Assembly: GCF_026151205.1 (NCBI RefSeq)
Contig: NC_087080.1
Location: 16,715,337 to 16,779,336, forward strand
Length of the DNA stretch: 64,000 bases
Reading direction: 5' to 3'
Origin: Bolinopsis microptera
Taxonomy: Eukaryota; Ctenophora; Tentaculata; Lobata; Bolinopsidae
Shown: positions 16,293-64,000 of the stretch, one piece after another
Numbering within the stretch: the first letter of the stretch is position 1
Layout: each line of letters opens with the position of its first letter
The notes under the pieces: model-generated
Told to the model about the DNA's origin: nothing
Database searches by the model: none
Seen by the model: only the letters and a program-made list of their open reading frames with translations
Program-made: the position numbers and the translations under genes

Positions 16293-19200
16293 ATGGAAAA
16301 GGAAGATGAAAAACCTGTTAAGAAGCAGTCTTTATTGAATTGTATTTATGAAGAGGTAAGTAGGTAAACAGACAATACCACTTAAATGGTGAAGAGGTAA
16401 CATAAATAATTTTGTAGTATTACGGGGTGCAAAACGTTGCACCCCCTTAAGTATCAGTTATTTATAATTAAATATTTTCCCTTGGATTAATTATCAAAAT
16501 CCAATAATTGTGTAAATTTGCTGAACTTGTATCCACAAGGCTTGTTTTCAGATTGTGAGAGGGTCTGCTGTTAGTGAGGATGATGCAAACTATTTAATAA
16601 AAGAACAACGTATCATAACATTTCTTAGTATACCATGTAAGTCAACAAGATTAATCAACAAGTAAATATCATAACATTTCTTAGTATACCATTTAAGTCA
16701 ACAAGATTAATCAACAAGTAAATATCATAACATTTCTTAGTATACCATGTAAGTCAACAAGATTAATCAACAAGTAAATATCATAACATTTCTTAGTATA
16801 CCATGTAAGTCAACAAGATTAATCAACAAGTAAATATCATAACATTTCTTAGTATACCATGTAAGTCAACAAGATTAATCAACAAGTAAATATCATAACA
16901 TTTCTTAGTATACCATGTAAGTCAACAAGATTAATCAACTTAAATATCATAAAATTTCTTAGTATACCATGTAAGTCAACAAGATTAATCAACAAGTAAA
17001 TATCATAACATTTCTTAGTATACCATGTAAGTCAACAAGATTAATCAACTTAAATATCATAACATTTCTTAGTATACCAGTGGCGTAACGTTGCCTGTTG
17101 GCGCCCCCCTGCCGAAAAGGCGCCCCCCTGTTGGCGCCCCCTCCCCTTTTGGTGCCCCTCCCTAAAATTGAACAAATTAGGTGATTTTAGAAGATACGCC
17201 GGTAAAAATCTCTAAAAAAGTGTGTATCTAGAGCAAAATGCGCATTTTTGCTAGTACTTTAGTTAAGTTTTCGAAATTGTCCCACATTCAAACGACGATT
17301 TGGCGCCCCCCTAAGACGGCGCCCCCCTGCACAGCGGGGTCAGCAGGGCCCTTCGTTACGCCACTGTAGTATACCATGTAAGTCAACAAGATTAATCAAC
17401 TTAAATATCATAACACTTCTTAGTATACCATGTAAGTCAACAAGATTAATCAACTTTATCATAACATTTCTTAGTATACCATGTAAGTCAACAAGATTAA
17501 TCAACTTTATCATTGATATAAATTACAGTTCACCATTTTACCACAAATAATTTATAAATACCAGGTGCAAGTATTTAGTTTGTTGAATTAGAATCTCAGA
17601 TAATCTAAGCTAATTTAATTAATTCAGGGGAGCTGGAGAAAGTTCTATATTTAGGTTATCTGGTTTGTTTGGATGCATTCTTGTTTCTCTTCACATTCCT
17701 TCCTATTCGCACTGTTTGTGCAGCGGTTAAGATACTCTTCTGGGTCCTCAAGAAGTTCCTTTTCTTGGATACTCCTCCTATTGATAAGGTATCTTTACTA
17801 AAACGGGATATTATCCAACTATCAGTATCTTTACTAAACATCAACAGCGCAATTATTTCGTAAACAGAGATTATTTCCAATCATGAAATTTTAAAATAAA
17901 TATGTTTTGATCTGATAAAAACCCTTTTACCAACTTTCTAATAATTCTTCATTGTATCATACAATATTGATATTTCACGGGTCCGTATAAAGCCGATTTT
18001 GCAGATTTAAGTTACAGAAAAACTAGCGGACCTAGCGGCAATATCGGATAGCTAGCGGAAACTAGCGGATGTGTTAATGAAGCTAGTACTATTCTCCACT
18101 AGTTTGTGCGCGATGTCCACTATACTCCGCTTGCCAGCCGCTAACTATTAATGCTGCATTTTGTTGCATCTCCGTTAGGCGTCCGCTAGCCATCCGCTGG
18201 CTTTTGTATAACTGAAATCGGGCAATACGGACCCTTGATTTACTAGTTGTGATAACTAAAACCGTTCAGGGGCACATATGTGATATATTTAGGGTAGCAA
18301 TAATGGGGGCTTGTATCTGGATCTTATCCTGGGTGAACATCTCCATGCTCTACCACCTGATTAGAGGACAGAGCGTTATCAAGCTCTACTTTATCTACAA
18401 TGTGCTAGAGATAGTGGACTATCTTTGTCTGTCTTTTGGTGAGTCATCACTTTCTTAAGCTTATTAAACAGGAATCACAGTGTATTAATAACTTACTGCA
18501 GCTTAAACGGAGCCACAGAGGCAGCTTTACAAAATACAAACTCTATTATCGATATTTCATATTATATTATTATATTAAATACTGTATTACATTTAATTAT
18601 TTTAGTACAATCTGATTGTTTAAATCCTATTTACAAACTTACATTGCTCAATTATAGAATAATTGTTGACTCTACTTAAAATGTAACGTAATCTAAGAAA
18701 ATCGGGCAGTCTGTCAACCATTTACTACATTGACTCATCAGGACAAATGATTTGTACATTACAAACATATATTCCAGCTTATAGCTGCTTATTGTACGAG
18801 CTGTATCATGAAAGACTCCATGATTTAGCTAACCTACTTTATCATTATGTATAGAGTATATTAGATAGTAGAGTATACTTACAAGTAGTGTATTAACTAC
18901 TACACACAGGTTTGATTAGAAAGTATACAGTCGTGTAATTACAGTGTTTAACATTACACCACCTGTTACTCTAGAACCTTCTCTTTTCTTTGTCACTAGT
19001 TGAGTAGTTGGAGCACTCTCTTCAATGTTATTATTATAACTAAATCACATGTATTACTGGAAGTGTACTTAGAACTTTACACTAAAAGTTTGAGTAACAG
19101 TAAATATACGGGTGTAACCACTAATAACCACAAGTAACCAATAGTAACCACTATACTAGTAACCACTATACTAGTAACCACTAGTAACCACTAGTAACCA

Positions 19201-22200
19201 CTAGTAACCAATAGTAACCAATAGTAACCACTAGTAACCACTAGTAACCGAACCAATAGTAACCAATAGTAACCACTAGTAACCAATAATAACCAATAAT
19301 AACCACTAGTAACCACTAGTAACCACTAGTAACCGCTAGTAACCACTAGTAACCAATAGTAACGATCACTACTCACTAGTCTTACACTTGTGTTAATTCT
19401 CCTCTAACATGTGTCATAATGCTAATTAGACCATTTTGGGACACTTTGAAAATGTGAAATTGTATTTTCGTCAGAACATTGGCCCAGCATATTATCGAGC
19501 GGAGTGTAGATATTATAAGTGGTAATGTTTGTAATGTTATAAGATGTGGTGTTTAGTATGAGTTTAATTAATTTTAACAGCAGAAAAGGGATTAAGTTTA
19601 AATATTTGAACACTAGTCTCTATAAGAAAATGTGGTTGCTCTACAAGTAAGTAACTACATTAACTCACAAACTAACAGGTGCTTTACTCGCTACTACTTA
19701 CTGCTACTATTCACTACTAGTTACTACTAGTTACTACTAGTTACTACTAGTTACTACTATAACTACTTACTGCTACTATTTACTCAGGTAGTGATGTAAT
19801 GGAGGCGCTGTTTTGGTTGACGATACGGAACAAGAGAAAGAAGCGGGAACATGTGGGAGTGTTATGGCACTGGGTGCTGGCCTGTATTTACACTACTATA
19901 CACTCCATGTGCTTCCTTATTCAACTTATCTGTCTTAGGTAATATTTACATGATATTACAGGGCTTGTGCGTGTTATTCAGTAAACAAACTGATTAAACA
20001 GTACAAATTAGAGGCTACATATTAAAGGGTACATATTGAGGGTACTAGAAGGTACATATTAGAGGGTACTAGAAGGTACATATTAGAGGGTACATATTAG
20101 AGGGTACATATTAGAGGGTACATATTAGAGGGTACATACTAGAGGGTACATACTAGAGGGTACATACTAGAGGGTACATATTAGAGGGTACATATTAGAG
20201 GGTACATATTAGAGGGTACATATTAGAGGGTACATATTAGAGGGTACATATTAGAGGGTACATATTAGAGGGTACATATTAGAGGGTACATATTAGAGGG
20301 TACATATTAAAGGGTACATATTAGAGGGTACATATTAGAGGGTACATATTAAAGGGTACATATTAGAGGGTACATATTAGAGGGTACATATTAAAGGGTA
20401 CATATTAGAGGGTACATATTAGAGGGTACTAGAAGGTACATATTAGAGGGTACATATTAGAGGGTACATATTAGAGGGTACATATTAGAGGGTACATACT
20501 AGAGGGTACATATTAGAGGGTACATATTAGAGGGTACATATTAGAGGGTACATATTAAAGGGTACATATTAGAGGGTACATATTAGAGGGTACTAGAAGG
20601 TACATATTAGAGGGTACATATTAGAGGGTACATATTAGAGGGTACATATTAGAGGGTACATACTAGAGGGTACATACTAGAGGGTACATACTAGAGGGTA
20701 CATATTAGAGGGTACATATTAGAGGGTACATATTAGAGGGTACATATTAGAGGGTACATATTAGAGGGTACATATTAGAGGGTACATATTAGAGGGTACA
20801 TATTAGAGGGTACATATTAGAGGGTACATATTAGAGGGTACATACTAGAGGGTACATATTAGAGGGTACATATTAGAGGGTACATATTAGAGGGTACATA
20901 TTAAAGGGTACATATTAGAGGGTACATATTAGAGGGTACTAGAAGGTACATATTAGAGGGTACATATTAGAGGGTACATATTAGAGGGTACATATTAGAG
21001 GGTACATATTAGAGGGTACATATTAGAGGGTACATATTAGAGGGTACATATTAGAGGGTACATATTAGAGGGTACATATTAGAGGGTACATATTAGAGGG
21101 TACATATTAGAGGGTACATATTAGAGGGTACATAGTGATAGTGTCCACTGTGTGGTGCACATTATATTGTATGTATGCTAATTATTATTATTGTATGTAA
21201 ATTGTAAACATATCGCGTTATCAAGTCTACTTTTAGTACATGGGGTACCTTTCTAACCTTAGTAGTGACATTAAGGATACCTAGCAATGTGATAATTCTA
21301 TTAATAAATATCATAACTATAATATTATTTATTGATTGTAAGAGTTAAAATGTTAATACTATTCAGTGTGGCGATTAACTCGCACAACAAGAGTTTACTC
21401 GTGGTAATGACCTCTAATCAGTATATGGAACTGAAGTCTTATCTTTTTAAAAAGTTCGACTACATGAACAACTACCAGGTAAAACAATAAAAGCTATGCT
21501 TTGCTATACGAGCTTTATTAGTTTATTAAGAAAAGGACTCTAATTTAGTTTTAAATGTCGAAGTCATAGTAAATAGTTTACAATGAATATTGACTTACTT
21601 TGATCAAATTATGACGTGTTTAAGTATGTTTATGTTTACAGATAGTTGCGCGGGATGTAAGAGAGAGGTTCTCCTAATCTTTATGTTTACAGATAGTTGC
21701 GCGGGATGTAAGAGAGAGGTTCTCCTAATCTTTATGTTTACAGATAGTTGCGCGGGATGTAAGAGAGAGGTTCTCCTAATCTTTATGTTTACAGATAGTT
21801 GCGCGGGATGTAAGAGAGAGGTTCTCCTAATCTTTATGTTTACAGATAGTTGCGCGGGATGTTAGAGAGAGGTTCTCCTATACTGTGGTCCTTGTCATGG
21901 TCTTCATCAGAAACATGTCCCAACTTGGTTAGATATTATTTACTACAATATAACCATTATCTCACAATTAGAGTGGCTACTAGTTTCACGTCCTCTGATA
22001 AGAGACAGGTTCCAGTATATTGCACTGCTAAACCAGTTAAACTTACCACTTACCACTTACCTTGCTGGTTAGACTGGTTAGATTTAGAAACTGTGCAGAC
22101 GCTAATCCTGTTAGAACTAAGTGATCTAATTAGATTTGACAATGTACCACGGATCAAATGACATATCTTGAACCTCCCAACCGAAAATTAGGATTTTCAG

Positions 22201-25200
22201 CTATTTTTGTAAAGAATGTGTATCTTACATCTTACAAATTACGCAGCCATGGTGTGAAATGTGTATGAAGTTGGAATGTGTATGAAGTTGGTGACTAAAC
22301 TTTAAAAACCCGGCAGCACAAAACCTGGTCTGGAAAACCCTTATCAGTAGAGTGTAGCTGTGCAAATATGATTGCTTCTAGGAACGGTTACCAAATTACG
22401 GCAAATATTCTCCTTCTAGATTAAATATGTTGCATATGTTACACACTAATAGGAACCAGGTTATATTCTCATTATGTGTATTACACACTGTGTAACCTCC
22501 CAAAAACCTGAGCCTTGTCCGCTAACTAACTAATCATAAGATAAGGTCCGAGTATCTGCACTGTAAATTAAATACTTTAGTCCTTGTTATAATCAACTAC
22601 CTGAGTATCTGTAAATTAAATACTTTATTCCTTGTTATAATCAACTACCTGAGTATCTGTAACATTAAATACTTTAGTCCTTGTTATAATCAACTACCTG
22701 AGTATCTGTAACATTAAATACTTTAGTCCTTGTTATAATCAACTACAGTGATATATATATATATTATATATATATATTATATATATATATTATCAACTTA
22801 ATAACACCAGAATGTGTGTGTGTCTGTGTGTGTGTCTGTGTGTGTGTCTGTGTGTAATTTCCGAACGGTTATACAAAAAAAACGGTAATAGTTACGGGAC
22901 TGGTTTTTTCGGTATAGTGCCGACAAAACTCTGACGAAGCCAATAAGCAAATTTTATAAAAATCGGCCGGTGGTAAGTGGTTTAATTGATGGTTTTGTAC
23001 CACAAAATATGTTACATAAAATGGCTTGAGAAGAACGGCAAGAGTTACGGGGCTAGCTCTCTCTCTCTCTGCATATGTAGCGTATATATTACATGGCGTA
23101 TATATTACATGGTCATATAATACTATAAACTTATTAGGGGAGGGAGTGCTCAAACGGTCTGTTTGGACTGTAGAGAGAGTTCATACTTTCATACGACAAT
23201 GTAATGCATGTTCACAAATATGATAGGCTGGTGTGGTGCATGGTGTTAAGGGTTAATTTCTATTGATTATAGATTAAGAATTACTATCTTTTAAGCATAC
23301 TATTGGATACGTGAGGGCACTCCGAATAGAATTGCTCGCCTAATCCGGGTTTTGACTCAGCGGGTAATTACTCCTACCCTTTTTAACTGCGGCAGTGAAA
23401 TCCCGGCCGTAGGCCGGGTTACACTAGTATATACTATATAGTGCAACATTGCTATTCAGATAGGCGATCTGCTCTAACGTTCCCAACATTCGCTATTTAT
23501 ATGTATATTTTAAAATCTATTTCGATATAAGCGGACTATAAGTAGTATTTATTGTATACCCTGTTTCATTTCATATACATAAGAGTGTTGTAGACTGTCA
23601 CTTTTCACACAAAGTTTTTAAAAAGCACATACCAACCTGAACATTCCTGACTCACCTGACACTGTGAGGGGACTAATTAGTGGGACTAATTACCCCTCAC
23701 TGTGAGGAGAGGGGACTAATTACCCCTCACTGTGTCACACACTAACTAGAATGTTGGCTCAATGCCAGCATGTGCAAATACTACAGTTCAAATCAGTTCA
23801 ACTCTAATTTCACACGTTCTAGGATGAGTGGAAGGACGATAACAACTTAGTATAAACCTTCCTTAATCTCACACATTACACTTATTTCTCCCTCAGAATG
23901 GGACACAGCCCATATGTGGGACATATTCCCTGATGTTGCTGTCATTGTCACGTGGTGTGACGTCATAACACGTGATGTGACGACATAACACGTGGTGTGA
24001 CGACATTACACTTATTCCCCCTCAGAATGGGACACAGCCCACATGTGGGACATATTCCCTGATGTTGCTGTCATTGTCACGTGGTGTGACGACATAACAC
24101 GTGGTGTGACGTCATAACACATGGTGTGACGTCATAACACGTGGTGTGACGTCATAACACGTGGTGTGACGACATAACACATGGTGTGACGTCATAACAC
24201 GTGGTGTGACGACATTACACTTATTCTCCATCAGAATGGGACACAGCCCATATGTGGGACATATTCCCTGATGTAGCTGTGATTGTTATCAGTGAGATAC
24301 TGATAGACTGGATCAAACACGCTTTCGTTACTAAGTTTAACGGAATACCTGTGGAAACATACAACGATTACAGGGTTTGTAACTAATTGTTATTATTTGT
24401 AACTAGTAACTAGTAACTAATTGTTATTAGTCACTTTCATTGAAGTCACGCTTTGTAGTGACTCTTTAGGACAAGTTCTCATTTCAAATCAGCTGTGAAA
24501 TGTTTGAAACTAGAAGCACTTATCAACAAAGTGAATACTGAATACTGCCCTAGTAGGTAGGTGAACTCTATTTGATCTGACACGTGACAGTAATTATGTA
24601 ATTACCCAATTAACCCATTATAATAACCACAGTACCAGCTGTATGACGACCTACTGAACCCCCAGCACTTTAAACAGACCTTCAGTAACAGGATGGACCT
24701 CATGGCGAGGAAGATACTATTTATTGCAATGCCACTTGCCTGCCTTACTGTTACTGTCTTATTAGAGGTGCGTACTGAAACCAGGGAATTTGGCAAAACT
24801 TGTGCTCGCTGATAGTTGTATTCTCTCTAAAACTAAAACAAGTCTTTATTGATATAAACGTAGTTAAAACTTGTTATTAAATATTGGATACAACATTAAT
24901 TTAAAATTAATAAGCCCGCTAATATACTAGCCCGTGTTAAACAATGTCCTGCTGTAGTGTATTATTACTCTGTGCTCCAGTGTTATAAATATATATCAGT
25001 AGTCAATGACTAGACATGGTTATTGAAAATTACAAAGAACAAAATGTATATATATATGTATTACTCTGTGCTCCAGTGTTGCCCTGTACTCGCTGTCTTT
25101 ATACACGTCACTCTTAATTAGCAGTACGTGATTTCGTAGGTTTAACACCTGACCACTTGTAAGCCATACCTCTACAGTGTGCGTGACATACCTGTTCGTG

Positions 25201-27592: not shown

Positions 27593-30500
27593 ATGATTAA
27601 TGGACGAGGAGAGGCGGTTGAGTCTGATGTACAGAGGTCTATATTAGCTAAAAACAGGGAAATACAGCAACAAATCCTCGCTGTGGACACTGCTGACGAC
27701 ACTTTACAGAGGTAGTGTATTATACCACTATAATATACTATTCTATTGAGTGAAGTGTGTTGACACTTCAATTCTCACAGTTCAACATAACACTAAATGT
27801 CTATATAACTATGTATATAAATAATAACTATATGTCAGGTTGTTGCTAGATGAACTAGAGAGACACCCCAATAACTATATAAATAATAACTATATATCAG
27901 GTTGTTGCTAGATGAACTGGAGAGACACCCCTATAACTATATAAATAATAACTATATGTCAGGTTGTTGCTAGATGAACTAGAGAGACACCCCTATAATA
28001 ACTATATGTCAGGTTGTTGCTAGATGAACTAGAGAGACACCCCAATAACTATATAAATAATAACTATATATCAGGTTGTTGCTAGATGAACTGGAGAGAC
28101 ACCCCTATAACTATATAAATAATAACTATATGTCAGGTTGTTGCTAGATGAACTAGAGAGACACCCCAATAATAACTATATATCAGGTTGTTGCTAGATG
28201 AACTGGAGAGACACCCCAATAATAACTATATGTCAGGTTGTTGCTAGATGAACTAGAGAGACACCCCAATAACTATATAAATAATAACTATATGTCAGGT
28301 TGTTGCTAGATGAACTAGAGAGACACCCCAATAACTATATAAATAATAACTATATGTCAGGTTGTTGCTAGATGAACTAGAGAGACACCCCAATAACTAT
28401 ATAAATAATAACTATATATCAGGTTGTTGCTAGATGAACTAGAGAGACACCCCAATAATAACTATATGTCAGGTTGTTGCTAGATGAACTAGAGAGACAC
28501 CCCTATAACTATATAAATAATAACTATATATCAGGTTGTTGCTAGATGAACTGGAGAGACACCCCAATAATAACTATATGTCAGGTTGTTGCTAGATGAA
28601 CTAGAGAGACACCCCTATAACTATATAAATAATAACTATATATCAGGTTGTTGCTAGATGAACTGGAGAGACACCCCAATAATAACTATATGTCAGGTTG
28701 TTGCTAGATGAACTAGAGAGACACCCCTATAACTATATAAATAATAACTATATATCAGGTTGTTGCTAGATGAACTGGAGAGACACCCCAATAAAGCTGC
28801 TTTGGTGGACGTTCTTAAAGAAATATCTCAACAAACTCTCTCCCTGCAGCAAATACCTTCCTTTGAGAATGGTAATTTTGTAAATTTCTATAAAGTCTTA
28901 TACATTTAACAGCAGATTTGATAACATCAGCTTCCAGAATTAGTGTTACATAATAAAACAATTAACATTTCCTCAGAACAACAGATGATACGACTGGACA
29001 GTATGTTAGCCTCAGAGGGGATTACCCGCCCTGAAAATCCCATCATCTTCCCAAATGTAAGTTAACATCGTAATGTTACCTCTTATAGCTCTTATAGTTT
29101 TATATTGCAAAACTTCCTCAATTTGTTTATGAAATCTCAAAATTGAAACGTATTATTTTTAGATCGGCGAATCAGCAGTTGACCAGAGAGAATACCAAGA
29201 GAAAATTTCCATTCTTCGTAAAATATACCAAGAGGAAATGGCAGCGTACGAGAAGGCATGTCAGGAATTCAAAGACCCTGTCTTATCATTGTTAGAACAA
29301 CAGTCCACACTGCGTCCTGTTACCCAGATAGAGAAGGAGCTGTTACTTGCAAACATTCAACACAGATTCCAAGGTAACTATTCTTACCTTATAATTTAAA
29401 TTGTCGCGACCATTTTGCAATCCTTATAATCAAAGGATGTTGCAAAGTTAGCCATGATCACATAGAGTGATAAATATATATATGTCGAATGTCGATGGTG
29501 AAATGATATAATATATATAAGTATTGAGTTTAAAAACCTTGACTCTAAAAGTGGCCTATGGTTGGTCCATGTCCGAATCGGCCCCAACAAAACCTTTCAT
29601 ACGTGATTCTTTGTCAGTTTTTGTCTCGCGTAATCTAGCTAATTTGAAAGATAGAATTTAAAGAATTCCAGGTATGCCTGCATGGAACGCTCTATGACTT
29701 TGTATTAGATAACCAAATTGTAAAATCTCCTCAGGAATTCAGTTACAGCTTAAAGATTCGATATGTCAGGCGATCGTGGTCTTACGAAATAGAATATTTG
29801 ATGTCCGGTAAGTCCATGAGAAAAGTACGTGTATTTTGAACATGATGGGTATTTCTTATCTTTATTTATCCGAACTTACTAATCAATTAGCATCCTTGGA
29901 TCTCCTCAGAATAACATAATTTTTCTGGAACGCGCGATCGCCGAATATAGTTTTGATAGGGTAGCAAACAACTGTTCACAGTTGAAAACGTAGGGATTTA
30001 AGCGCGCGTGGTCGGAATTTGAGTGACTTACTTGGTTCCTGTAATAGGCTGTCAGATTTTAAGACACGTTGAATAAGTAATACAGACACGTTCATTAGTG
30101 GTATAGTTCGACCTGTTCATTCGGTCTACAGGTCCTGGGCTGGTAATTAAATTGATAACATCAGATGGATGGCTGCTTTTTACCGACATATATCTTCACA
30201 ATTCAAATTTCAGACGCAAAAGACAGAATTTCACTAAAGCTGCAACCGTCATTTTGAATGAGTATTTCTATAACAATCTTGCAAATCCTTATCCTAACGA
30301 ACAAGTTAAAGAGGAACTCGCCGCAAAATGCAATCTCTCAGTAGCTCAGGTTGTTATCTTAACTCATCCGCTAATATTGCTACATAATTAGGTTCACGAA
30401 AACCTTGTATTACTTTTTATCACTGTCACTTGTAACTGATGTGTAAGCCTGATTACTCTTCAGATAACCAACTGGTTTGGGAACAAAAGAATTCGGTTCA

Positions 30501-30619
30501 AGAAGAATTACGTTAAAAGCGAAGATGAGCTGAACGTAGAAGAGACACACGAGACTCAGACATACCCTGACACTAATCCTGACAAGGAAATGAGAGATAA
30601 TAATAATCCAGACAGTTGA
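27593..30619 (+). CDS. PBX-class TALE homeodomain transcription factor
   Basis: Exons 27593-27711, 28759-28871, about 28978-29057, 29161-29373, 29734-29809, 30214-30348 and 30465-30619 splice in phase. The N-terminal PBC-A part has [21 protein letters not shown] and [17 protein letters not shown]. The PBC-B part has [19 protein letters not shown] and [17 protein letters not shown]. The homeodomain begins [19 protein letters not shown], has the TALE three-residue loop extension (NPYP), and its recognition helix reads WFGNKRIR, as in PBX/Extradenticle. Members pair with Hox and Meis proteins in the nucleus. The C-terminal tail after the homeodomain is short and acidic (about 40 residues), and the usual poly-Ala linker between PBC-A and PBC-B is absent. 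Intron 1 is mostly a decoy-acceptor array. A poly(A) signal AATAAA lies at 30656. Confidence 0.93.
27836..28758 (+). repeat. 50/62-bp array repeating the PBX exon 2 acceptor (about 16 decoys)
   Basis: Each unit carries an acceptor and the first 30-odd bases of exon 2 (TCAG|GTTGTTGCTAGATGAACT.GAGAGACACCCC). Units alternate between a long form with ATAACTATATAAATAATAACTATAT and a short form with AATAATAACTATAT. About 16 copies precede the functional one at 28759, where CCCCAATAA continues as coding AATAAAGCTGCT. Read as exon, every decoy runs into an in-frame stop. Confidence 0.93.
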
Positions 30620-40965: not shown

Positions 40966-42180
40966 CCGTGATAGTTGTGCAGCTTCATTTCTAGTAGCGT
41001 ACGTGTGGTTAGCCATTATACCGCTCTGCAATTATGTGGCAAATAGAGCAGATATAGCAGTCTTATCTCAAGGTTTATTTGCTGATATCGTGGTTGTCTG
41101 TCTCCTAGAACCATTAATAGAGTCCGGGGTCAAATGTAACATTTGTACGATTAGTACAGTACTGTACACGATTTGAGATTCTCGCAATTACAATTTGTTA
41201 AATTCCATCGCTGTGAAATAAGAATACTTTAAAATTAACAAAGACTGTTACTATCCAGTATCCACCATTACATGTGAGTGTGAAATAGAAGGTTTCAAAA
41301 TTTCAAAAAAGTTTCCTTTCTAATTTCTATATTTTTCAATAATTAACCGTGATTACTGTCAGGTTCTCCCAATGAAAATCAAAACAAGCCCTGCCCACAT
41401 TTCCTGAGAATGATCTGGAAGTTGTTCAGCGGCGTACTGAAGTTGTTGAAACTCCTGGACCTTATTCCAAGTAAGAAATTGTAAGATTTTGGTTGAGATA
41501 AAAAGTTTAATTTCTTTTCGATTCCAAATATAAATTCCGTGTCCGTCAAGTAGGACTCTCTTTTTCTAGTTTAAATAATTAGACATGATGAGATATTTCT
41601 AACTGTTAATTAACCACGTTATACTATGCCACTACACATTATACTGTGCCACTATACCACTACCTTTAAAGTTATGTAACCCTTTTAGTATCACAATTGT
41701 ATGATAGTTGACAACGAAGCCGTAAAAATTAAATTATAAAAACCAAAAATACCTGCAGCTACCGCTATTGTTATGGCAACAAATTAATTGGTTTAAATTC
41801 GTTTGTGTAAATGACTCAACAACTAATATTATTATTACCGGAGTTTCTTTTCTAAACATGGAGCATTTTCCTGGAGGGGTTCTTGAAGCATTTTTAGGTG
41901 TAAGTTCGGTTTGACGGCATTTTGTAAAAAATATAACGAAAAAGTTTTAATCTGCAAAATAAGAAAAAATTTACTATCAAAAGATAAATTACTATTTGGT
42001 TGAAAATTGATTATAGTGCTGGGTTCCTTTTATATTTCTCTTACATTATTATTAAGCTTAAAGTAAAATTCAAACAACAACACATTATTAAAGAACGTCC
42101 AACCAAACTGTGTCGATATTTTCCCACAATCGACAAGACCCCAACAAAAACAATTAATCAACATATCATTTAAATATCAA

Positions 42181-42186
42181 TTTATT
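42181..42186 (-). terminator. Polyadenylation signal of the DEG/ENaC gene
   Basis: Minus-strand AATAAA about 30 bases past the stop codon, implying a very short 3' UTR. Confidence 0.55.
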
Positions 42187-42215
42187 TTATCAAATGATTA
42201 ACAAAATGATTTAGT

Positions 42216-48444: not shown

Positions 48445-50533
48445 GGGGTAATGCAACGACCATTAATGTCAGTATTTGAGATTTTTCCGAAACTGACATT
48501 GTCATTAATGGTCATTAATGGTCATAAATGGTCATTAATGGTCATTAATGGTCATTAATGGTCATAAGATATCTCAAATTTTGTAATATCTGGCAGTAGC
48601 CTTGACTAATTGAGGGGAGAAATCATGTTTCGTACGGAGATCAGCGGCTTAGGTCAATACAGATGAACGGATCAAAACAGCCAGTCAGAGCGAGCTGTCG
48701 AAGTGGGAGTACCCGCCAGTATTTTACTTCAACAAAACAGGAGACTTTCCCATGCAGGACATCTGTCATGAGTTGAAAAAACTGGTTAACTGTCTCCATT
48801 ACCTCAGTACTAGATTCATCATAATGGCCGATTCTGATTCGATCGAAGACACGAAATTCACCCTAAACTGGGGGATGATTCTTAAACTCGCTACGGAAAG
48901 TGAAGAATTCAGAGACTCTGTATCCCTTACAACTCTGCAGCACTCTGATAGACAAAACCCGCAGTGTGCTGCAGAGCTAACGGCTAAATGGGATGTTCTA
49001 AAACAAGCAGGATTTCTGAGCCTCTCGGCCTATCTTAAGGCCGGGTTTTTGCTCCTGGCAGCGTTTTATGACAAATCGCTGACTGTTTCAGAAAGAGCTG
49101 AAAATGCGTGGACTGTTTTCACGTTCTTCACTCTGTGGGGAGAACACTCGAAGAAATTAAATACCAGCGAGAACTTCATAACTAGAGAAAGCTTCAAAGA
49201 CTTAATATCCGCAGCTAACGGACTTGTCTTGTATTTTGTCGACTTGATTTGTAATCACCCCAAAGCACCAGTAGTACCGTGGTTTTTATCGTCTGATCAA
49301 AATGAACAACTCTTCGCTCGAATCAGGGTTGGACGGCACTCCGGTAGACGCACACAAATCGACTCTACAAGAGTCCCTGAAGCCATGGGTCGTTACAACC
49401 GACTATTAGAGGTGGAGAATACGCTTGATGTTGAATGTGGTACAAGTGTTCATAAAACCGCTCATACCCGGGGGAAGACACTCTTTCGTTCTGAGTGGAG
49501 CAAACATCCAGAGAAAAAGATTGCTGTTGATTTTGGATGTTCGGTCAAGATGAGTAACCTTATAATCCAAAGCTTAAAAAGAGGATCCAAGATTGGAGAG
49601 GAACTCTTTGTTTCCTCTTCTAGTTATGGAAGTTCGTATCTTTCAGGTGATAATGGAAATGTTATTTCTGAAAGACGGCGGAGTCTCCAATTTCCACTCT
49701 CATATGGTAGTGAACAACAATCAGATGATGAATCAGACCATGAGAGTGAAGACAACTTTTCTGATTATGAGGACGAAGAGCTGGTTGATAGCTCCACTAA
49801 GGTCGTGACCAAATATTGTAACCAAGGCAAGACCAACTTTGGTGCGAAAAGCCGAAGGAAAAGATTTTTTGGTCTTGCCTTGGATACAAGTATTGGGTTG
49901 TATCGCCCAGTCTGTAAAGGTTTAGCAGAACCAGAGCTATGCAACGCTCAAGAGGTGCAAGTTTGTGGAACAATAACTGGTATACTCATAACAGGCAAGG
50001 ATGAAAAAAGAAGGCGCACGGTTGTGCAGGGCAAAGTGCTTTCTATATCTGTTAAGACATCTAAAGCATCACAAAGAAAAGGAAATGCTCGGTCGGGAGA
50101 GAGAAGACCTGCGGTGGCGATCTGTATTGAGCACGATATGTCTTCCCAGTGTTGGGTGAAGACCCAGGATGGTTCAATAATAAGTTTAGATTGGGAGAAC
50201 GTTGTTGTTATGGTATAATTGGGTTAGTTGTAATATGTAGTAATATCAGTGTTTGAGAAAGTTGTAAAATTAACTTTTCATCCTCTTCCAAGACGTAAAG
50301 TACCGTCTACTTATTGTTAGTTAACTTTAGGTAGGTTCTAAGTGGTCCTCGTGTCCGTCCTTCTTGTTCCAGGAAGTGCGGAAAAAAACATGACCATTAA
50401 TGTCAGTATTCGAAATTTTGGCAAAACTCATTAATGGTCATTAATGGTCATTAATGGTCATTAATGGTCATTAATGGTCATTAATGGTCATTAATGGTCA
50501 TTAATGGTCATTAATGGTCGTTGCATCACCCCC
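48445..50533 (+). mobile_element. TIR DNA transposon with 8-bp target duplication (P-like?)
   Basis: The left end GGGGTAATGCAACGACC and the right end (reverse complement GGGGTGATGCAACGACC) are matching TIRs. They are flanked by TGTGGGAA at 48437-48444 and 50534-50541, an 8 bp target duplication. Subterminal regions carry arrays of the 10-bp unit GGTCATTAAT (48499-48551 and 50429-50519), beside a shared block CCATTAATGTCAGTATT. One long ORF lies between. The 8 bp duplication fits P or hAT superfamilies; the protein looks more P/THAP9-like than hAT-like. The element is only 2.1 kb and its ORF lacks a recognisable DNA-binding domain. It may be an internally deleted derivative. Confidence 0.85.
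48752..50218 (+). CDS. Transposase-like protein of the TIR element (C-terminal part?)
   Basis: 488 codons. The same frame is open upstream to about 48650, where a TTAG acceptor-like site precedes it, so the real start may be further 5' or on a lost exon. It reads ICHELKKLVNCLHYL near the N-terminus. The middle has LVLYFVDLICNHP..PVVPWFLSSDQNEQLFARIRVGRHSGRR, resembling the block in P-type transposases where 'D...E.FF..R' residues of the RNase-H-like domain occur. The second half is basic and then strongly acidic (DDESDHESEDNFSDYEDEEL), ending with a basic region and WENVVVMV. No stops or frameshifts are present. The catalytic set is incomplete in what I can see, and no THAP zinc finger is present. 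A transposase origin is supported mainly by its placement between TIRs. Confidence 0.6.
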   Translation: MQDICHELKKLVNCLHYLSTRFIIMADSDSIEDTKFTLNWGMILKLATESEEFRDSVSLTTLQHSDRQNPQCAAELTAKWDVLKQAGFLSLSAYLKAGFLLLAAFYDKSLTVSERAENAWTVFTFFTLWGEHSKKLNTSENFITRESFKDLISAANGLVLYFVDLICNHPKAPVVPWFLSSDQNEQLFARIRVGRHSGRRTQIDSTRVPEAMGRYNRLLEVENTLDVECGTSVHKTAHTRGKTLFRSEWSKHPEKKIAVDFGCSVKMSNLIIQSLKRGSKIGEELFVSSSSYGSSYLSGDNGNVISERRRSLQFPLSYGSEQQSDDESDHESEDNFSDYEDEELVDSSTKVVTKYCNQGKTNFGAKSRRKRFFGLALDTSIGLYRPVCKGLAEPELCNAQEVQVCGTITGILITGKDEKRRRTVVQGKVLSISVKTSKASQRKGNARSGERRPAVAICIEHDMSSQCWVKTQDGSIISLDWENVVVMV

Positions 50534-50541
50534 TGTGGGAA

Positions 50542-52943: not shown

Positions 52944-54409
52944 ATGGTGAGTTTTCCTTTTCAATACTCTTTATCTAGATATTGATAAATCCTTAGGAAA
53001 ATCCTTAGGAAAATCCTTAGAAATCTAAAAAATAAAGCTGATTTATTAAAGCTCCCATTTCAGAGAGAGTGTATCTCTGTTCACATTGGACAGGCAGGTG
53101 TCCAAATTGGCAACAACTGTTGGGAGCTGTACTGTCTAGAACATGGCATCCATCCTGACGGTCAGATGCCCTCAGACACTGGAGCTGGTGGAGATGATTC
53201 CTTCAACACCTTTTTCTGGGAGACTGGATCTGGGAAACATGTCCCTCGAGCTGTCTTCTTGGACTTGGAGCCGACGGTTATAGATGAGGTTAGATTGGGA
53301 ACCTACAGACAACTCTTCCACCCGGACCAGCTGATAAGTGGGAAGGAGGATGCTGCTAACAACTATGCTAGAGGACATTACACGGTGGGAAAGAGAAGAT
53401 AGATGAGCTGGTGGATAAGGTGAGGAAACTCACTGACGCGTGTAGTGGACTGCAGGGCTTCCTCGTCTTCCATTCCTTTGGAGGGGGTACTGGCTCCGGG
53501 TTCACCTCTCTATTTCTTGAGAGACTAGCAGTGAACTATGGTAAAAAGAGTAAGCTTGAGTTTGCTATCTACCCCTCTCCTAAAGTGGGAACCTCAGTTG
53601 TAGAACCCTACAATTCTGTCCTCACTACGCACAACACCTTAGAGTACTCGGACTGTGCCTTTATGGCTGATAACGAGGCTGTCTATGACATTTGCCGTCG
53701 GAACCTTGACATTGAGAGGCCCTCTTACACCAACTTGAACAGACTCATGGCACAGATTGTCTCCTCCATCACTGCTTCTCTCCGATTTGATGGAGCTCTA
53801 AATGTTGACCTGACAGAGTTTCAAACTAACCTGGTCCCTTTCCCCCGGATCCACTTTCCTCTGGTAACCTACTCTCCGGTCTTCTCTCCAGAAAAAGCTT
53901 ATCACGAGCAGCTCTCAGTGGACCAGATTACAGCTGCTTGTTTTGAACCTGCCAACCAGATGGTTAAATGTGATCCTAGACACGGCAAGTACATGGCCTG
54001 CTGTCTCCTGTACCGAGGTGACGTAGTCCCTAAAGATGTGAACGTGGCTATCAGCACCCTCAAGACCCAGAGAAACATACAGTTTGTAGACTGGTGTCCC
54101 ACAGGGTTCAAGGTAGGTATCAACTACCAGCCCCCTGCTGTCGTCCCTGGTGGGGATCTAGCTCCAGTCCTCCGCTCTGTCTGTATGCTGGCCAACACCA
54201 CGGCTATAGGAGACGCCTGGGCTCGCCTGGACCACAAGTTCGACCTGATGTACAGAAAGAGAGCCTTCGTACACTGGTATGTGGGGGAAGGTATGGAGGA
54301 GGGGGAGTTCTCAGAGGCTCGGGAGGACATGGCTGCTCTGGAGATGGACTACGAGGAGGTGGGGAGGGAGTCCCCTGAGGACGGGGACCATGAAATTAGC
54401 GAATATTGA
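52944..54409 (+). CDS. Divergent alpha-tubulin with a one-base frameshift
   Basis: Exon 1 is only the ATG (52944-52946), the usual tubulin arrangement. Exon 2 starts at 53064 and reads [21 protein letters not shown]. The GTP-binding signature GGGTGSGF is at about residue 141 onward. The frame breaks at about 53391-53393: one base is missing after TVGK, so the frame ends at TAG 53402, and the correct frame resumes with [13 protein letters not shown] to a stop at 54409, otherwise intact for over 330 residues. This may be an assembly error or a new pseudogene. Position 40, the acetylated Lys of most alpha-tubulins, is Thr, and the luminal loop is one residue shorter ([10 protein letters not shown]). 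The C-terminus ends EISEY, keeping the terminal Tyr. Compared with typical alpha-tubulins it is diverged (about 80% by eye). A specialised isotype is likely if functional. Confidence 0.85.
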
Positions 54410-56870: not shown

Positions 56871-56875
56871 GTCGG
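56735..56875. repeat. 37-bp tandem repeat, about four units
   Basis: Units of TGTTAGTTCATAGTACCAAC CACCTTATTGGTCTACC, the last interrupted by the inverted CAATTGACCCCC element that follows. Confidence 0.9.
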
Positions 56876-57568
56876 ATGGGCAACAATTGACCCCCGACAA
56901 TTGACCCCCCGACAATTGACCCTCGACAATTGACCCCCCGACAATTGACCCCCCGACAAATGACAATATAATTTAATACAATTCTAACCCTGACCCTGAA
57001 CCTGACCCTGACCCTGACCCTGACCCTGACCCTGACCCTGACCCTGACCCTGACCCTGACCCTGACCCTGACCCTGACCCTGACCCTGACCCTGACCCTG
57101 ACCCTGACCCTGACCCTGACCCTGACCCTGACCCTGACCCTGACCCTGACCCTGACCCTGACCCTGACCCTGACCCTGACCCTGACCCTGACCCAGACCC
57201 TGACCCTGACCCTGACCCTGACCCTGACCCTGACTCTGACCCTGACCCTGACCCTGACCCTGACCCTGGCCCTGGCCCTGTCCCTGACCCTGACCCTGAC
57301 CCTAACCCGATCAATTGACCCTAGTGTAATTACATGGGGGGTCAATTGTCGGGGGTCAATTGTCGTACTAAGCCCTAAATTTCGCGACACTTGACCCCTG
57401 TGTAATAACATAGGGGGTCAATTGTCGGGGGGTCAATTGTCGGGGGGTCAATTGTCGGGGGGTCAATTGTCGTACTAAACCTTAGATTTCGCGACAATTG
57501 ACCCCAGTGTAATTACATAGGGGGTCAATTGTCGGGGGTCAATTGTCGGGAGTCAATTGTCGCGGTAC
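56876..57568. repeat. Inverted CAATTGACCCCC arrays flanking a (CCCTGA)n core
   Basis: Left arm: five units of GACAATTGACCCCCC (56884-56965). Core: about 52 CCCTGA units (56988-57303). Right arm: the reverse complement GGGGGGTCAATTGTC in three groups (57334-57366, 57412-57472, 57521-57563), separated by a spacer with TACTAA.CCTTAGATTTCGCGACA-like sequence. The whole reads as a large inverted structure inserted in the preceding 37-bp repeat. Long Arg-Val and Gly-Ser frames through the core are artefacts. Confidence 0.9.
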
Positions 57569-57671
57569 CGTCCCAACCACCTTCTTACTATAGATTCTGT
57601 GACAGAAATACCAGAAATACCTTGTATAAATACCTTGTAGGTAATCTGAAGTATAATATTTGCACGTGCAG

Positions 57672-60600
57672 GATATGGCTGGACGTGTCTTCCTCTTGAG
57701 TGTACTGACATGTGCTCTACTACACCCCTCTCTCGCTTCACATCGTACGTACCAAACATTCTACTTGCCATCATGTGTATAACATTAGAAATTATAAGTA
57801 GATATTATAGTGGTTCTACATGAATATTACAGTTGAATCTCTGTTGTCATGACATTATTATCTCACCCCCTCTGTTGTCATGGCATTATTATCTCACTCC
57901 CTCTGTTGTCATGACATTATTATCTCACTCCCTCTGTTGTCATGACATTATTATCTCACTCCCTCTGTTGTCATGACATTATTATCTCACTCCCTCTGTT
58001 GTCATGACATTATTATCTCACTCCCTCTGTTGTCATGACATTAATATCTCACTCCCTCTGTTGTCATGACATTATTATCTCACTCCCTCTGTTGTCATGA
58101 CATTATTATCTCACTCCCTCTGTTGTCATGACATTATTATCTCACTCCCTCTGTTGTCATGACATTATTATCTCACTCCCTCTGTTGTCATGACATTAAT
58201 ATATCACTCCCTCTGTTGTCATGACATTATTATCTCACTCCCTCTGTTGTCATGACGTTATTATCTCACTCCCTCTGTTGTCATGACATTATTATCTCAC
58301 TCCCTCTGTTGTCATGACATTATTATCTCACTCCCTCTGTTGTCATGGCATTATAATCTCACTCCCTCTGTTTTCATGGCATTATTATCTCACTCCCTCT
58401 GTTGTCATGACATTATTATCTCACTCCCTCTGTTGTCATGACATTATTATCTCACTCCCTCTGTTGTCATGACATTATTATCTCACTCCCTCTGTTGTCA
58501 TGAAATTATAATCTCACTCCCTCTGTTGTCATGACATTATTATCTCACTCCCTCTGTTGTCATGACATTATTATCTCACTCCCTCTGTTGTCATGACATT
58601 ATTATCTCACTCCCTCTGTTGTCATGACATTATTATCTCACTCCCTCTGTTGTCATGACATTAATATCTCACTCCCTCTGTTGTCATGACATTATTATCT
58701 CACTCCCCCAGAGCTAGAGATAGACGCTAACGATGCAACAGTGATGAATACTGGTGACCATCAAATAATCTGCACAATAGACGATCTCGCCGGACCAGTA
58801 ATAGAGTTTAAATGGATAACTCCCGTTCTCCCCAGCGGAGGAACCTTCCTCTCCGACCCCCTCCCTGACTCCCTTACTGGGAGTCAGAACACTGCAGATA
58901 TTGTTCTTACCATCACGGCGGCTCAACTTGTAGAACTGAAAGCCATTGATGAAGAGCAATCCTTCGCCTGTAATCTTCTATATTCATCATACGACATAGA
59001 ACAAACTCAAGATTTAACAATATTAACACCACGTTAGTTCTTACTCATTATACTCCATCTACGTTTTGACTTAACAAGCCATCGATTCTAATACCCCTCC
59101 AGTTACTCATCAGTTAAGGTAAATTCATTTGAAATGATGTATTATTAATTTCTCTATTTCAGAAGTCTCTATGGAAGTTCCCGCTACTAAAGCGTACACC
59201 ATGCAGGATCACATTATCAGCTGTGTAATAACAGGGATCACTGCAAAACAAACCGACATCGTGTGGAGTCATATCCCAGCTGATAGCGTCACCGGCGCCT
59301 ACACCCAGGACCTTGGATCTTACGATTCATCTGGACACACCCAAACAGCCTTTTTAAAGATAAAGAGTTCCGAGTTGGCACTTCTTAAGTCGTTCCAAGC
59401 TCGTCACCTCTTCACCTGCACAGTTACTGTTGGTGATCATATCATGAAAACAACACAAGATCTCCTTCTCTTCACCCCAAGTAATCCCACATATATTAGA
59501 GTAGCTAGGAATGCCGGACCAAGTAATCCCACATATATCAGAGTAGCTAGGAATAGCGGACCAAGTAATCCCACATATATTAGAGTAGCTAGGAATAGCG
59601 GACCAAGTAATCCCACATATATTAGAGTAGCTAGGAATGCCGGACCAAGTATAAATCCTACATATATTAGAGTAGCTAGGAATAGCGGACCAAGTAATCC
59701 CACATATATCAGAGTAGCTAGGAATAGCGGACCAAGTAATCCCACATATATTAGAGTAGCTAGGAATGCCGGACCAAGTAATCCCACATATATTAGAGTA
59801 GCTAGGAATAGCGGACCAAGTAATCCCACATATATTAGAGTAGCTAGGAATAGCGGACCAAGTAATCCCACATATATTAGAGTAGCTAGGAATGCCGGAC
59901 CAAGTATAAATCCTACATATATTAGAGTAGCTAGGAATAGCGGACCAAGTAATCCCACATATATCAGAGTAGCTAGGAATAGCGGACCAAGTAATCCCAC
60001 ACATATTAGAGTAGCTAGGAATAGCGGACCAAGTAATCCCACATATATTAGAATAGCTAGGAATAGCGGACCAAGTAATCCCACATATATAAGAGTAGCT
60101 AGGAATAGCCGACCAAGTAATCCCACATATATAAGAGTAGCTAGGAATAGCCGACCAAGTAATCCCACATATATCAGAGTAGCTAGGAATAGCGGACCAA
60201 GTAATCCCACATATATTAGAGTAGCTAGGAATAGCGGACCAAGTAATCCCACATATATTAGAGTAGCTAGGAATAGCGGACCAAGTAATCCCACATATAT
60301 TAGTGTAGCTAGAAATAGCGGACCAATTAATCCCACATATATTAGAGTAGCTAGGAATAGCGGACCAAGTAATCCCACATATATTAGAGTAGCTAGGAAT
60401 AGCGGACCAAGTAATCCCACATATATTAGAGTAGCTAGGAATAGCGGACCAAGTAATCCCACATATATTAGTGTAGCTAGGAATAGCAGACCAAGTATAA
60501 ATCCTACATATATCAGAGTAGCTAGGAATAGCGGACCAAGTAATCCCACATATATTAGAGTAGCTAGAAATAGCGGACCAAGTAATCCCACATATATTAG

Positions 60601-63600
60601 AGTAGCTAGGAATAGCGGACCAAGTAATCCCACATATATTAGAGTAGCTAGAAATGCCGGACCAAGTAATCCCACATATATTAGAGTAGCTAGAAATAGC
60701 GGACCAAGTAATCCCACATATATTAGAGTAGCTAGGAATAGCGGACCAAGTAATCCCACATATATTAGAGTAGCTAGAAATGCCGGACCAAGTAATCCCA
60801 CATATATTAGTGTAGCTAGGAATAGCGGACCAAGTAATCCCACATATATTAGAGTAGCTAGGAATAGCGGACCAAGTAATCCCACATATATTAGAGTAGC
60901 TAGGAATAGCGGACCAAGTAATCCCACATATATTAGTGTAGCTAGGAATAGCGGACCAAGTAATCCCACATATATTAGAGTAGCTAGGAATAGCGGACCA
61001 AGTAATCCCACATATATTAGAGTAGCTAGGAATAGCGGACCAAGTAATCCCACATATATTAGAGTAGCTAGAAATGCCGGACCAAGTAATCCCACATATA
61101 TTAGTGTAGCTAGAAATAGCGGACCAAGTAATACCACATATATTAGTGTAGCTAGGAATAGCGGACCAAGTAATCCCACATATATTAGAGTAGCTAGAAA
61201 TGCCGGACCAAGTAATCCCACATATATTAGAGTAGCTAGAAATGCCGGACCAAGTAATCCCACATATATTAGTGTAGCTAGAAATAGCGGACCAAGTAAT
61301 CCCACATATATTAGTGTAGCTAGGAATAGCGGACCAAGTAATCCCACATATATTAGTGTAGCTAGGAATAGCGGACCAAGTAATCCCACATATATTAGTG
61401 TAGCTAGGAATAGCGGACCAAGTAATCCCACATATATTAGTGTAGCTAGGAATAGCGGACCAAGTAATCCCACATATATTAGAGTAGCTAGGAATAGCGG
61501 ACCAAGTAATCCCACATATATTAGTGTAGCTAGGAATAGCGGACCAAGTAATCCCACATATATTAGAGTAGCTAGGAATAGCGGACCAAGTAATACCACA
61601 TATATTAGTGTAGCTAGAAATAGCGGACCAAGTAATCCCACATATATTAGAGTAGCTAGGAATAGCGGACCAAGTAATACCACATATATTAGTGTAGCTA
61701 GAAATAGCGGACCAAGTAATACCACATATATTAGTGTAGCTAGGAATAGCGGACCAAGTAATCCCACATATATTAGAGTAGCTAGGAATAGCGGACCAAG
61801 TAATCCCACATATATTAGTGTAGCTAGGAATAGCGGACCAAGTAATCCCACATATATTAGTGTAGCTAGGAATAGCGGACCAAGTAATCCCACATATATT
61901 AGAGTAGCTAGGAATAGCGGACCAAGTAATACCACATATATTAGAGTAGCTAGGAATAGCGGACCAAGTAATCCCACATATATTAGTGTAGCTAGGAATA
62001 GCGGACCAAGTAATCCCACATATATCAGAGTAGCTAGGAATAGCGGACCAAGTAATCCCACATATATTAGAGTAGCTAGGAATAGCGGACCAAGTAATCC
62101 CACATATATTAGAGTAGCTAGAAATGCCGGACCAAGTAATCCCACATATATTAGAGTAGCTAGAAATAGCGGACCAAGTAATCCCACATATATTAGAGTA
62201 GCTAGGAATGCCGGACCAAGTAATCCCACATATATTAGTGTAGCTAGAAATAGCGGACCAAGTAATCCCACATATATTAGTGTAGCTAGGAATAGCGGAC
62301 CAAGTAATCCCACATATATTAGTGTAGCTAGGAATAGCGGACCAAGTAATCCCACATATATTAGTGTAGCTAGGAATAGCGGACCAAGTAATCCCACATA
62401 TATTAGTGTAGCTAGGAATAGCGGACCAAGTAATCCCACATATATTAGTGTAGCTAGGAATAGCGGACCAAGTATAAATCCTACATATATTAGAGTAGCT
62501 AGGAATAGCGGACCAAGTAATCCCACATATATTAGTGTAGCTAGGAATGCCGGACCAAGTAATCCCACATATATTAGTGTAGCTAGGAATAGCGGACCAA
62601 GTAATCCCACATATATTAGTGTAGCTAGGAATAGCGGACCAAGTAATCCCACATATATTAGTGTAGCTAGGAATAGCGGACCAAGTATAAATCCTACATA
62701 TATTAGAGTAGCTAGGAATAGCGGACCAAGTAATACCACATATATTAGTGTAGCTAGGAATAGCGGACCAAGTATAAATCCTACATATATTAGAGTAGCT
62801 AGAAATAGCGGACCAAGTAATCCCACATATATTAGTGTAGCTAGGAATAGCGGACCAAGTAATACCACATATATTAGAGTAGCTAGGAATAGCGGACCAA
62901 GTAATCCCACATATATTAGAGTAGCTAGGAATAGCGGACCAAGTAATCCCACATATATTAGTGTAGCTAGGAATAGCGGACCAAGTATAAATCCTACATA
63001 TATTAGAGTAGCTAGGAATAGCGGACCAAGTAATACCACATATATTAGTGTAGCTAGGAATAGCGGACCAAGTATAAATCCTACATATATTAGTGTAGCT
63101 AGGAATAGCGGACCAAGTAATCCCACATATATTAGTGTAGCTAGGAATAGCGGACCAAGTAATACCACATATATTAGTGTAGCTAGGAATAGCGGACCAA
63201 GTAATCCCACATATATTAGAGTAGCTAGGAATAGCGGACCAAGTAATCCCACATATATTAGTGTAGCTAGGAATAGCGGACCAAGTAATCCCACATATAT
63301 TAGAGTAGCTAGGAATAGCGGACCAAGTAATACCACATATATTAGTGTAGCTAGAAATAGCGGACCAAGTAATCCCACATATATTAGTGTAGCTAGGAAT
63401 AGCGGACCAAGTAATACCACATATATTAGTGTAGCTAGAAATAGCGGACCAAGTAATACCACATATATTAGAGTAGCTAGGAATAGCGGACCAAGTAATC
63501 CCACATATATTAGAGTAGCTAGAAATAGCGGACCAAGTAATCCCACATATATTAGTGTAGCTAGGAATAGCGGACCAAGTAATACCACATATATTAGAGT

Positions 63601-64000
63601 AGCTAGGAATAGCGGACCAAGTAATCCCACATATATTAGAGTAGCTAGGAATAGCGGACCAAGTAATCCCACATATATTAGAGTAGCTAGGAATAGCGGA
63701 ACAACAATTCTACACTCCAATGACTACTACTATGATCATTATATCGCATGTATTTTTATAGACAACTAACCTCTAAATCCTTCTCAGCCGCTTCCATTAA
63801 ACCGATGATAACTAACGTTTACACAACGGACGATAACCATGTTATAAGCTGTATGTTTGATGATACTTTAGAAGAAGTGACCGGAGTTACTTGGAGCCCA
63901 GCTACCGAGACCATTGGAAAATACAGCCTGGCTGACGGGAGTTATGATATTCCGGGCAGAAGACAAATCTCTACTTTGACTATCTCACAAGAGGAACTTG
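57672..64000 (+). CDS. Secreted/surface protein with tandem Ig-like exons (5' part)
   Basis: An acceptor at 57671 precedes ATG 57675. The first exon (to 57744) is a signal peptide (MAGRVFLLSVLTCALLHPSL ASH). Exons 58712-59032, 59163-59480 and 63788 to beyond the window each encode one domain of about 106 residues. The shared pattern is H.ISC...W.P......Y....SYD..G..Q.A.L.I....L..L......F.C. This Cys-Trp-Cys spacing fits an Ig-like fold, and every exon has phase 1-1, ideal for exon duplication. The domains are clearly homologous but diverged. Such arrays occur in adhesion and allorecognition proteins; the function here is unknown. Introns 1 and 3 consist mostly of tandem arrays. The 1532-codon open frame across 59171-63769 is exon 3 plus an in-frame intronic repeat, not a real protein. 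Confidence 0.75.
57838..58706. repeat. 31-bp minisatellite in Ig-gene intron 1
   Basis: About 28 units of CTGTTGTCATGACATTATTA TCTCACTCCCT. The final unit runs directly into the exon 2 acceptor (TCTCACTCCCCCAG), so the repeat supplies the pyrimidine tract of the real splice site. Confidence 0.95.
59478..63700 (+). repeat. 42-bp minisatellite starting at the exon 3 donor of the Ig gene (about 100 units)
   Basis: Unit: CCAAGTAATCCCACATATAT TAGAGTAGCTAGGAATAGCGGA. It begins at the real donor CCCCAA|GTAAT (59480/59481), so each unit repeats CCAAGTAAT. Variant positions (AGA/AGT, AGC/GCC, CCC/ACC, GG/GA, and a 3-base insertion giving ATAAATCC) are shuffled along the array. Because 42 is divisible by 3 and the unit lacks stops in one frame on each strand, it is open for over 1400 codons on both strands. 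Most variants change amino acids, which argues against coding selection. Confidence 0.95.

Follow-up and report, generated by a model that had tools for sequence, protein, structure and literature searches.

Tandem arrays that repeat a genuine splice site of the gene they lie in have a direct precedent in human ABCA7. According to the available text of PMC5954066, the intron-18 variable number tandem repeat (VNTR) of this gene has a 25-bp unit, the first two bases of which are the exon 18 donor GT, in about 12 to 427 copies; canonical splicing persists, and retention of one unit (a frameshift) and skipping of exon 19 have been observed. Here we describe arrays in a 64-kb stretch of DNA (the window) within the 264.65-Mb assembly of the ctenophore Bolinopsis microptera. 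As in ABCA7, the minisatellite units of six window arrays hold the authentic splice site of their host gene. Whereas the ABCA7 array starts at the GT, with no exon bases repeated, and concerns a donor only, the units described here carry 5 to about 52 exon bases, and five of the six solid cases are acceptors, in four genes within 64 kb. The arrays are the same kind of thing as the ABCA7 VNTR, extended to acceptors and to units carrying exon bases. Such overlaps are about as frequent as random placement in short introns predicts, and a modest enrichment is compatible with the data. A literature search covering titles and the starts of abstracts, with partial coverage, returned no ctenophore paper on splice-junction arrays.

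The six solid overlaps, five with acceptors and one with a donor, are the following (positions are those of the window).

16611 to 17079, plus strand: 56-bp array, 8.4 copies, spanning the donor of TAPT1 exon 2 (16552-16636, then GTAAGT)
21629 to 21880, plus strand: 51-bp array, 4.9 copies, spanning the acceptor of TAPT1 exon 7 (21846-21927)
23873 to 24300, plus strand: 129-bp repeats, themselves containing 20-bp arrays, spanning the acceptor of TAPT1 exon 8 (24235-24374); the array end was placed manually
27814 to 28794, plus strand: 48/62-bp array spanning the acceptor of PBX exon 2 (28759-28871)
33140 to 33297, minus strand: 50-bp array, 3.2 copies, over the exon 4 acceptor of a secreted-protein gene (exon 33144-32877)
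43084 to 43493, minus strand: 67-bp array, 6 copies, spanning the acceptor of DEG/ENaC exon 10 (43114-42934)

At the TAPT1 exon 2 donor (ACCAT/GTAAGT, the slash marking the junction), 26 exon bases lie within the 56-bp unit and nine decoys have an intact GT. The five copies at TAPT1 exon 7 include about 35 exon bases per 51-bp unit and provide four decoys with an intact AG, while both intact AG decoys at exon 8 carry about 52 exon bases each by hand count. The PBX exon 2 acceptor (TATATCAG/GTTGTTGC) is present in 17 copies, with about 36 exon bases per unit and 16 decoys with an intact AG. Exon bases are repeated as well in the secreted gene (5 in the 50-bp unit, two intact AG decoys) and in DEG/ENaC (31 in the 67-bp unit, five intact AG decoys). 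The presence of exon bases inside the units indicates that the arrays are local copies. The PBX array stretch had a single match in a whole-genome search, and the listed matches of the TAPT1 exon 7-8 stretch elsewhere (40 of 1,932 candidates scored) sit only in a mobile element. The first-pass annotation had named seven junction overlaps; these six are borne out by the sequence and the spliced models, while the seventh, at the exon 3 donor of an Ig-like gene, is doubtful because of its open frame.

The spliced models of all four host genes are open throughout. TAPT1 matches Pfam PF05346 at residues 104-405, so the exon 2/3 junction is not covered by the domain match. PBX shows PF03792 from residue 41, the first residue of exon 2, plus a homeobox, and in DEG/ENaC PF00858 spans residues 46-448 of 463; the secreted-gene model matched no Pfam family. 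The PBX gene (27593-30619, plus strand) looks intact, and among the 120 listed of its 280 protein matches close relatives are present and none is named as a B. microptera protein; its array may have hindered automatic annotation of the gene.

In TAPT1 intron 7, a repeat of about 640 bp (22792-23440, plus strand) adjoins AT- and TG-rich simple repeats and has 40 more near-full-length matches of 94-100% identity among the listed ones (40 of 1,932 scored). It has the look of a non-autonomous mobile element that was active recently. The difference between GTA in the exon 7 decoys and GTT in the true copy was considered as loss of a cryptic donor and rejected, as the two score nearly alike (4.7 vs 4.2). 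A further element interrupts the exon 2 donor array, which resumes beyond it as a 51-bp repeat (17367-17513).

17078 to 17366, strand unassigned: insertion in the TAPT1 exon 2 donor array, bearing terminal inverted repeats AGTGGCGTAACG...CGTTACGCCACT (from reading the sequence)

The introns holding the six arrays measure 210, 367, 503, 991, 1,047, and 2,307 bp, and each array contains just one end of its intron. Intron gain and sliding in Drosophila, as presented in the available part of PMC2891723, resemble these cases in that a tandem duplication with splice signals is tolerated since the additional copy is spliced out; the paper also discusses premature stops and nonsense-mediated decay (NMD). 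In that study, however, exon duplication creates a new intron, whereas here existing introns are lengthened and one intron end lies in the repeat. Intron gain by tandem duplication needs both intron ends in the duplicated segment and was therefore rejected for the six window cases.

Decoy sites were scored with a splice matrix trained on the B. microptera genome itself, in 14 overlapping arrays (seven in the window, Ig included, and seven in the randomly drawn blocks described below). The median decoy scored at least as high as the true site in 9 of the 14 arrays and 0.1-0.4 below it in four (PBX, DEG, the B5:42847 donor, and the two-copy B5:49299 donor), while no decoy was found in the one that remains (B3:32902). 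No decay of the decoys is visible. Use of a decoy would lead to a stop at every decoy of the six solid arrays (TAPT1, 9/9, 4/4, and 2/2; PBX, 16/16; DEG, 5/5; secreted gene, 2/2), as the first-pass annotation had supposed for all decoy blocks. This generalization fails at the Ig array, where 0 of 90 decoy donors give a stop, and in a WD-repeat gene in a random block, where each of the 13 decoy donors preserves an open frame (stops in 0/13).

The annotated proteins and homology indicate that the authentic exon-proximal site is still used. The NCBI B. microptera TAPT1 homolog isoform X2 (P0001, 580 amino acids [aa]), which equals our spliced TAPT1 model apart from two residues at an exon 9 edge misplaced in the model, takes the exon-proximal copy at all three arrays, and two further proteins, presumably from ctenophores and 69-70% identical to P0001, are continuous over the array junctions. 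Likewise, NCBI LOC134824088 isoform X1 (P0241) reads STEPDSKSLR/LYTF, corresponding to the first of 14 donors, and its relative P0242 reads the same junction. In LOC134824088, which lies in a random block, 13 of 13 decoys are in frame and the use of one would merely add residues; the first donor is nonetheless used in the annotated protein. Two related PBX proteins (92% and 82% identical), whose genes may or may not carry the array, are continuous across exons 1-2. In the secreted, Ig, and DEG genes, use of the exon-proximal site is presumed from open frames and, for DEG, from the Pfam match.

The decoys might instead be used, yielding regulated or noisy isoforms, either with premature termination codons leading to NMD or with in-frame insertions, such that array length tunes output as in ABCA7. 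Decoy scores that resemble true-site scores are consistent with this idea, as are the stops that decoys in TAPT1, PBX, DEG, and the secreted gene would yield and the one-unit retention and exon skipping seen with VNTR length in human ABCA7 (available part of PMC5954066). Moreover, the P0241 cluster has eight members, which were not told apart, and the TAPT1 record bears the label isoform X2, which makes a further annotated isoform likely. However, both annotated proteins checked take the exon-proximal site, with no decoy isoform among them, and we regard decoy use as unlikely. The proposal that decoys beside the true site are tolerated is supported by the like scores, by these two proteins, and by overlaps that are not depleted.

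Two neighboring paralogous WD-repeat genes (L020-L022, block B3, C12:5826272-5843280) share a 21-bp array overlapping a donor, with 14 and 6 copies, and carry further arrays at matching exon ends. The difference in copy number (14 vs 6) is a comparison of paralogues within one genome. Arrays of this kind are hard to assemble. Against an assembly artifact, the copies differ from one another, an insertion divides one of the arrays, and the same donor array occurs in both paralogues. The probability of such an artifact is close to negligible.

The Ig-like gene differs from the six solid cases in its reading frame.

59477 to 63704, plus strand: 42-bp array, 100 copies, where Ig exon 3 (59163-59480) ends, with the exon 3 frame open across it

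The array starts 4 bases inside the presumed end of exon 3, at a donor-like site. The exon 3 frame is open across all of the approximately 100 units up to a stop at 63769, and therefore the array may be coding. The resulting open reading frame (ORF) of 1,534 aa (59163-63769, plus strand) consists, after exon 3, of about 100 copies of the 14-residue unit SNPTYIRVARNSGP and a short tail. Cutting the array at CCAAGTA gave 99 pieces, of which 89 have 42 bases and eight have 45, next to one double unit (84) and one last piece (46). This near-regular 42/45-base spacing, the long ORF, and the gene finder, which calls the array exon when run on collapsed sequence, favor the view that some arrays, most clearly this one, are coding and involve no splice choice. 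On the other hand, the distinct unit changes (8 non-synonymous and 3 synonymous) are about as expected from the 93:29 possible ones, with no sign of coding constraint, Ig modules finish at exon ends, and exon 3 splices in frame to exon 4 (59480/63788). The Ig model is open as far as the window reaches and falls just below the Pfam cut-off. The ORF could represent a giant coding repeat, or else an intron that can be read through. As a general account, a coding role has very little likelihood, and it is inapplicable to the six arrays whose decoy blocks carry stops.

The frequency of overlaps has to be judged against the repeat content and gene structure of the genome. In the window, 69 Tandem Repeats Finder (TRF) rows merged into 45 arrays; there and in random blocks 1-4, TRF arrays account for 11-20% of the sequence. 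Tandem repeats constitute 13% of the genome of another ctenophore, Hormiphora (available part of PMC8527503). The median intron is 319 bp long, or 229 bp among introns without arrays. For comparison, 270 kb of randomly drawn sequence was analyzed, made up of five blocks of 50 kb each plus 20 kb from the next one (the first of 32 drawn); the 20 kb added no further array in predicted genes, and the total stayed at 85. Genes were predicted with a self-trained, joint two-strand gene finder after every array had been reduced to one to two units. Beyond the window the models are ab initio, save where matched to P0241. Under the null model, the unit of each array was placed randomly within its own gene, excluding placements wholly inside exons.

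Several features of this test affect individual counts. It merges some window genes (the Ig gene with a tubulin-like one) and calls the Ig exon 3 array exon, and hence this array was left out of the counts. In block B5, the donor array at 41811-42869 falls wholly in a predicted exon, and its neighbor at 41049-41839 was counted in its place. The TAPT1 exon 8 array entered with 66 exon bases rather than the approximately 52 of the hand count. Overlaps at B1:24619, B1:33528, B5:46420, and B5:49264 were counted although their exons are unconfirmed, as was that at B3:32902, which has no decoy site. The exon at B1:46155, also counted, is doubtful, judging from its protein family. Keeping weak or doubtful exons in the random-block counts inflates the observed overlaps and so favors the enrichment claim.

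Among arrays with a period of at least 10 in the random blocks, 9 of 85 overlapped a junction where 6.65 were expected (ratio, 1.35; confidence interval, 0.62-2.57; P = 0.21). Removing the second of the two paralogues gave 7 of 78 against 5.79 (P = 0.36), restriction to genes scoring at least 40 gave 6 of 73 against 5.42 (P = 0.46), and both measures together gave 4 of 66 against 4.57 (P = 0.70). An earlier, array-masked version was similar (window, 7 vs 3.1; random blocks, 7 vs 5.3), with its expectation lowered by units that were too short for TAPT1 exon 8 and the secreted gene. The first-pass annotation had held that randomly placed minisatellites should rarely hit exon edges. This premise does not survive, since chance alone predicts 2.54 overlaps in the window and 6.65 in the random blocks; junction hits by chance are common because introns without arrays have a median of 229 bp and units are tens of bases long. 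The share of exon in the unit ranges from 0.10 to 0.74 and fits a uniform distribution (Kolmogorov-Smirnov P = 0.51) in a small number of cases (n = 9, seven from the window, Ig included, and two from random blocks), and in these nine cases the array edge varies in its position relative to the splice site. Duplications beginning there should give exon overlaps close to zero; the 5 to about 52 bases seen in the six solid arrays show no such clustering and leave seeding at junctions unsupported.

Other window arrays end close to an acceptor without overlapping it.

57839 to 58707, plus strand: 31-bp array, 28 copies, ending 4 bases before the start of Ig exon 2 (58712)
33488 to 34422, minus strand: 39-bp array, 24 copies, 32 bases away from the acceptor of secreted-gene exon 3
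43748 to 43916, minus strand: 26-bp array, 6.5 copies, 11 bases from the DEG exon 9 acceptor
44580 to 44678, minus strand: 5-bp array of GTGGT, 21 bases away from the acceptor of DEG exon 7 (44558)

These arrays, reported earlier as lying about 4-30 bases from acceptors, are real (distances of 4, 11, 21, and 32 bases), but such nearness is no commoner than chance in the window. At a period of at least 10, which leaves out the 5-bp DEG exon 7 array, window arrays showed no excess within 10 bp (1 vs 1.24 expected) or 30 bp (3 vs 3.26) of an exon. In the random blocks, seven arrays of such period lay within 10 bp of an exon against 4.14 expected (P = 0.12).

The best explanation is probably indiscriminate minisatellite duplication in a repeat-rich genome with short introns, combined with splicing that chooses the exon-proximal copy. 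Tandem copying of segments of about 20-130 bp would occur nearly anywhere in introns by slippage or unequal exchange, irrespective of splice sites. Where a duplication straddles an exon edge, the sequence shows that the exon stays intact at the exon-side copy and that the other copies become intron with full decoys. Under exon definition, in which sites are paired across a short exon, the copy nearest to the exon would win among equals, and the decoys may be tolerated because of this pairing, as the near-equal scores, the annotated proteins, and published rules suggest. This agrees with the available part of PMC9225289, where the pair of alternative sites closest across the exon is preferred when flanking introns are large; that rule was drawn from an alternative-site database and reporter tests rather than from long arrays or ctenophores. 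Exon skipping is higher in the ctenophore Mnemiopsis than in unicellular relatives (available part of PMC6142364).

Several observations weigh against this explanation. In the window, which is the stretch that prompted the idea of enrichment, 6 of 37 arrays with a period of at least 10 overlap a junction (2.54 expected, P = 0.03), as do 6 of 17 with a period of at least 20 (2.10 expected, P = 0.008). At the longer period, the random blocks gave 9 of 42 against 5.22 (P = 0.055). Pooled counts without the paralogue, which include the window, were 13 of 115 against 8.35 (P = 0.061) at the shorter and 13 of 56 against 6.73 (P = 0.01) at the longer period; none of these cut-offs was set in advance. 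In eight small homeobox loci outside the main counts, one of four arrays overlapped where 0.1 was expected, and random-block arrays within 30 bp of an exon slightly exceeded chance (16 vs 10.59, P = 0.049). As for splice-site choice, short introns prefer the pair closest across the intron (available part of PMC9225289), and the introns here are short (median, 319 bp), with one overlapping array in a 210-bp intron that is not obviously of the long class. The overlapping arrays themselves lengthen their host introns. Furthermore, the available part of PMC6142364 places the shift to exon definition in bilaterian ancestors, outside which ctenophores fall. Finally, site choice was read from annotated proteins and homology, and RefSeq models may follow homology and open frames.

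The window count and the excess at a period of at least 20, both pooled and in the random blocks, favor a process linked to transcription or splicing, e.g., RNA-DNA hybrids or pausing, that would seed duplications preferentially at splice junctions. In contrast, the random blocks at a period of at least 10 showed no significant excess and the stricter set fell below expectation (4 vs 4.57), exon overlaps did not cluster at zero, and window arrays within 10 bp of an exon were at chance level. No result outside the window demonstrates a start of duplications at splice sites. A mechanism of this kind, one of the alternatives offered by the first-pass annotation, is thus unsupported despite the nominal enrichment in the window, and we consider it rather improbable. 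The proposed comparison of array-to-junction distances with random positions, carried out on the window and 270 kb, likewise found nominal enrichment in the window and a random-block excess that was not significant. With a sample of this size, enrichment of up to about 2.6-fold remains compatible with the data. Compared with indiscriminate duplication and exon-proximal choice, a bolder version is unlikely: in ctenophores, the choice of splice sites across the exon would be so firm as to make duplications that span a junction effectively neutral, perhaps mildly favored in origin, with seeding up to about 2.6-fold at exon edges and many natural multi-copy contests (2 to about 30, possibly 90 copies) at donors and acceptors.

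Two other loci in the window carry features apart from these junctions. A long ORF (48824-50212) within 48501-50519 has arrays of one 10-bp unit, TCATTAATGG, on both flanks, an arrangement that suggests a mobile element with subterminal repeats. At 53064-54409 (plus strand), a reading frame that we take to be alpha-tubulin-like has a break in frame near 53384-53456 and is possibly a pseudogene.

If the exon-proximal copy wins in all genes, these arrays would provide ready-made tests of how the spliceosome chooses among near-identical donors and acceptors, with no need for engineered reporters. That no deficit is visible suggests that arrays at exon edges can expand at no evident cost. Such tolerance matters for the annotation of repeat-rich genomes and for human VNTRs such as that of ABCA7. 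Such tests would also bear on whether exon definition existed early in animal evolution, a shift that one survey places in bilaterians.

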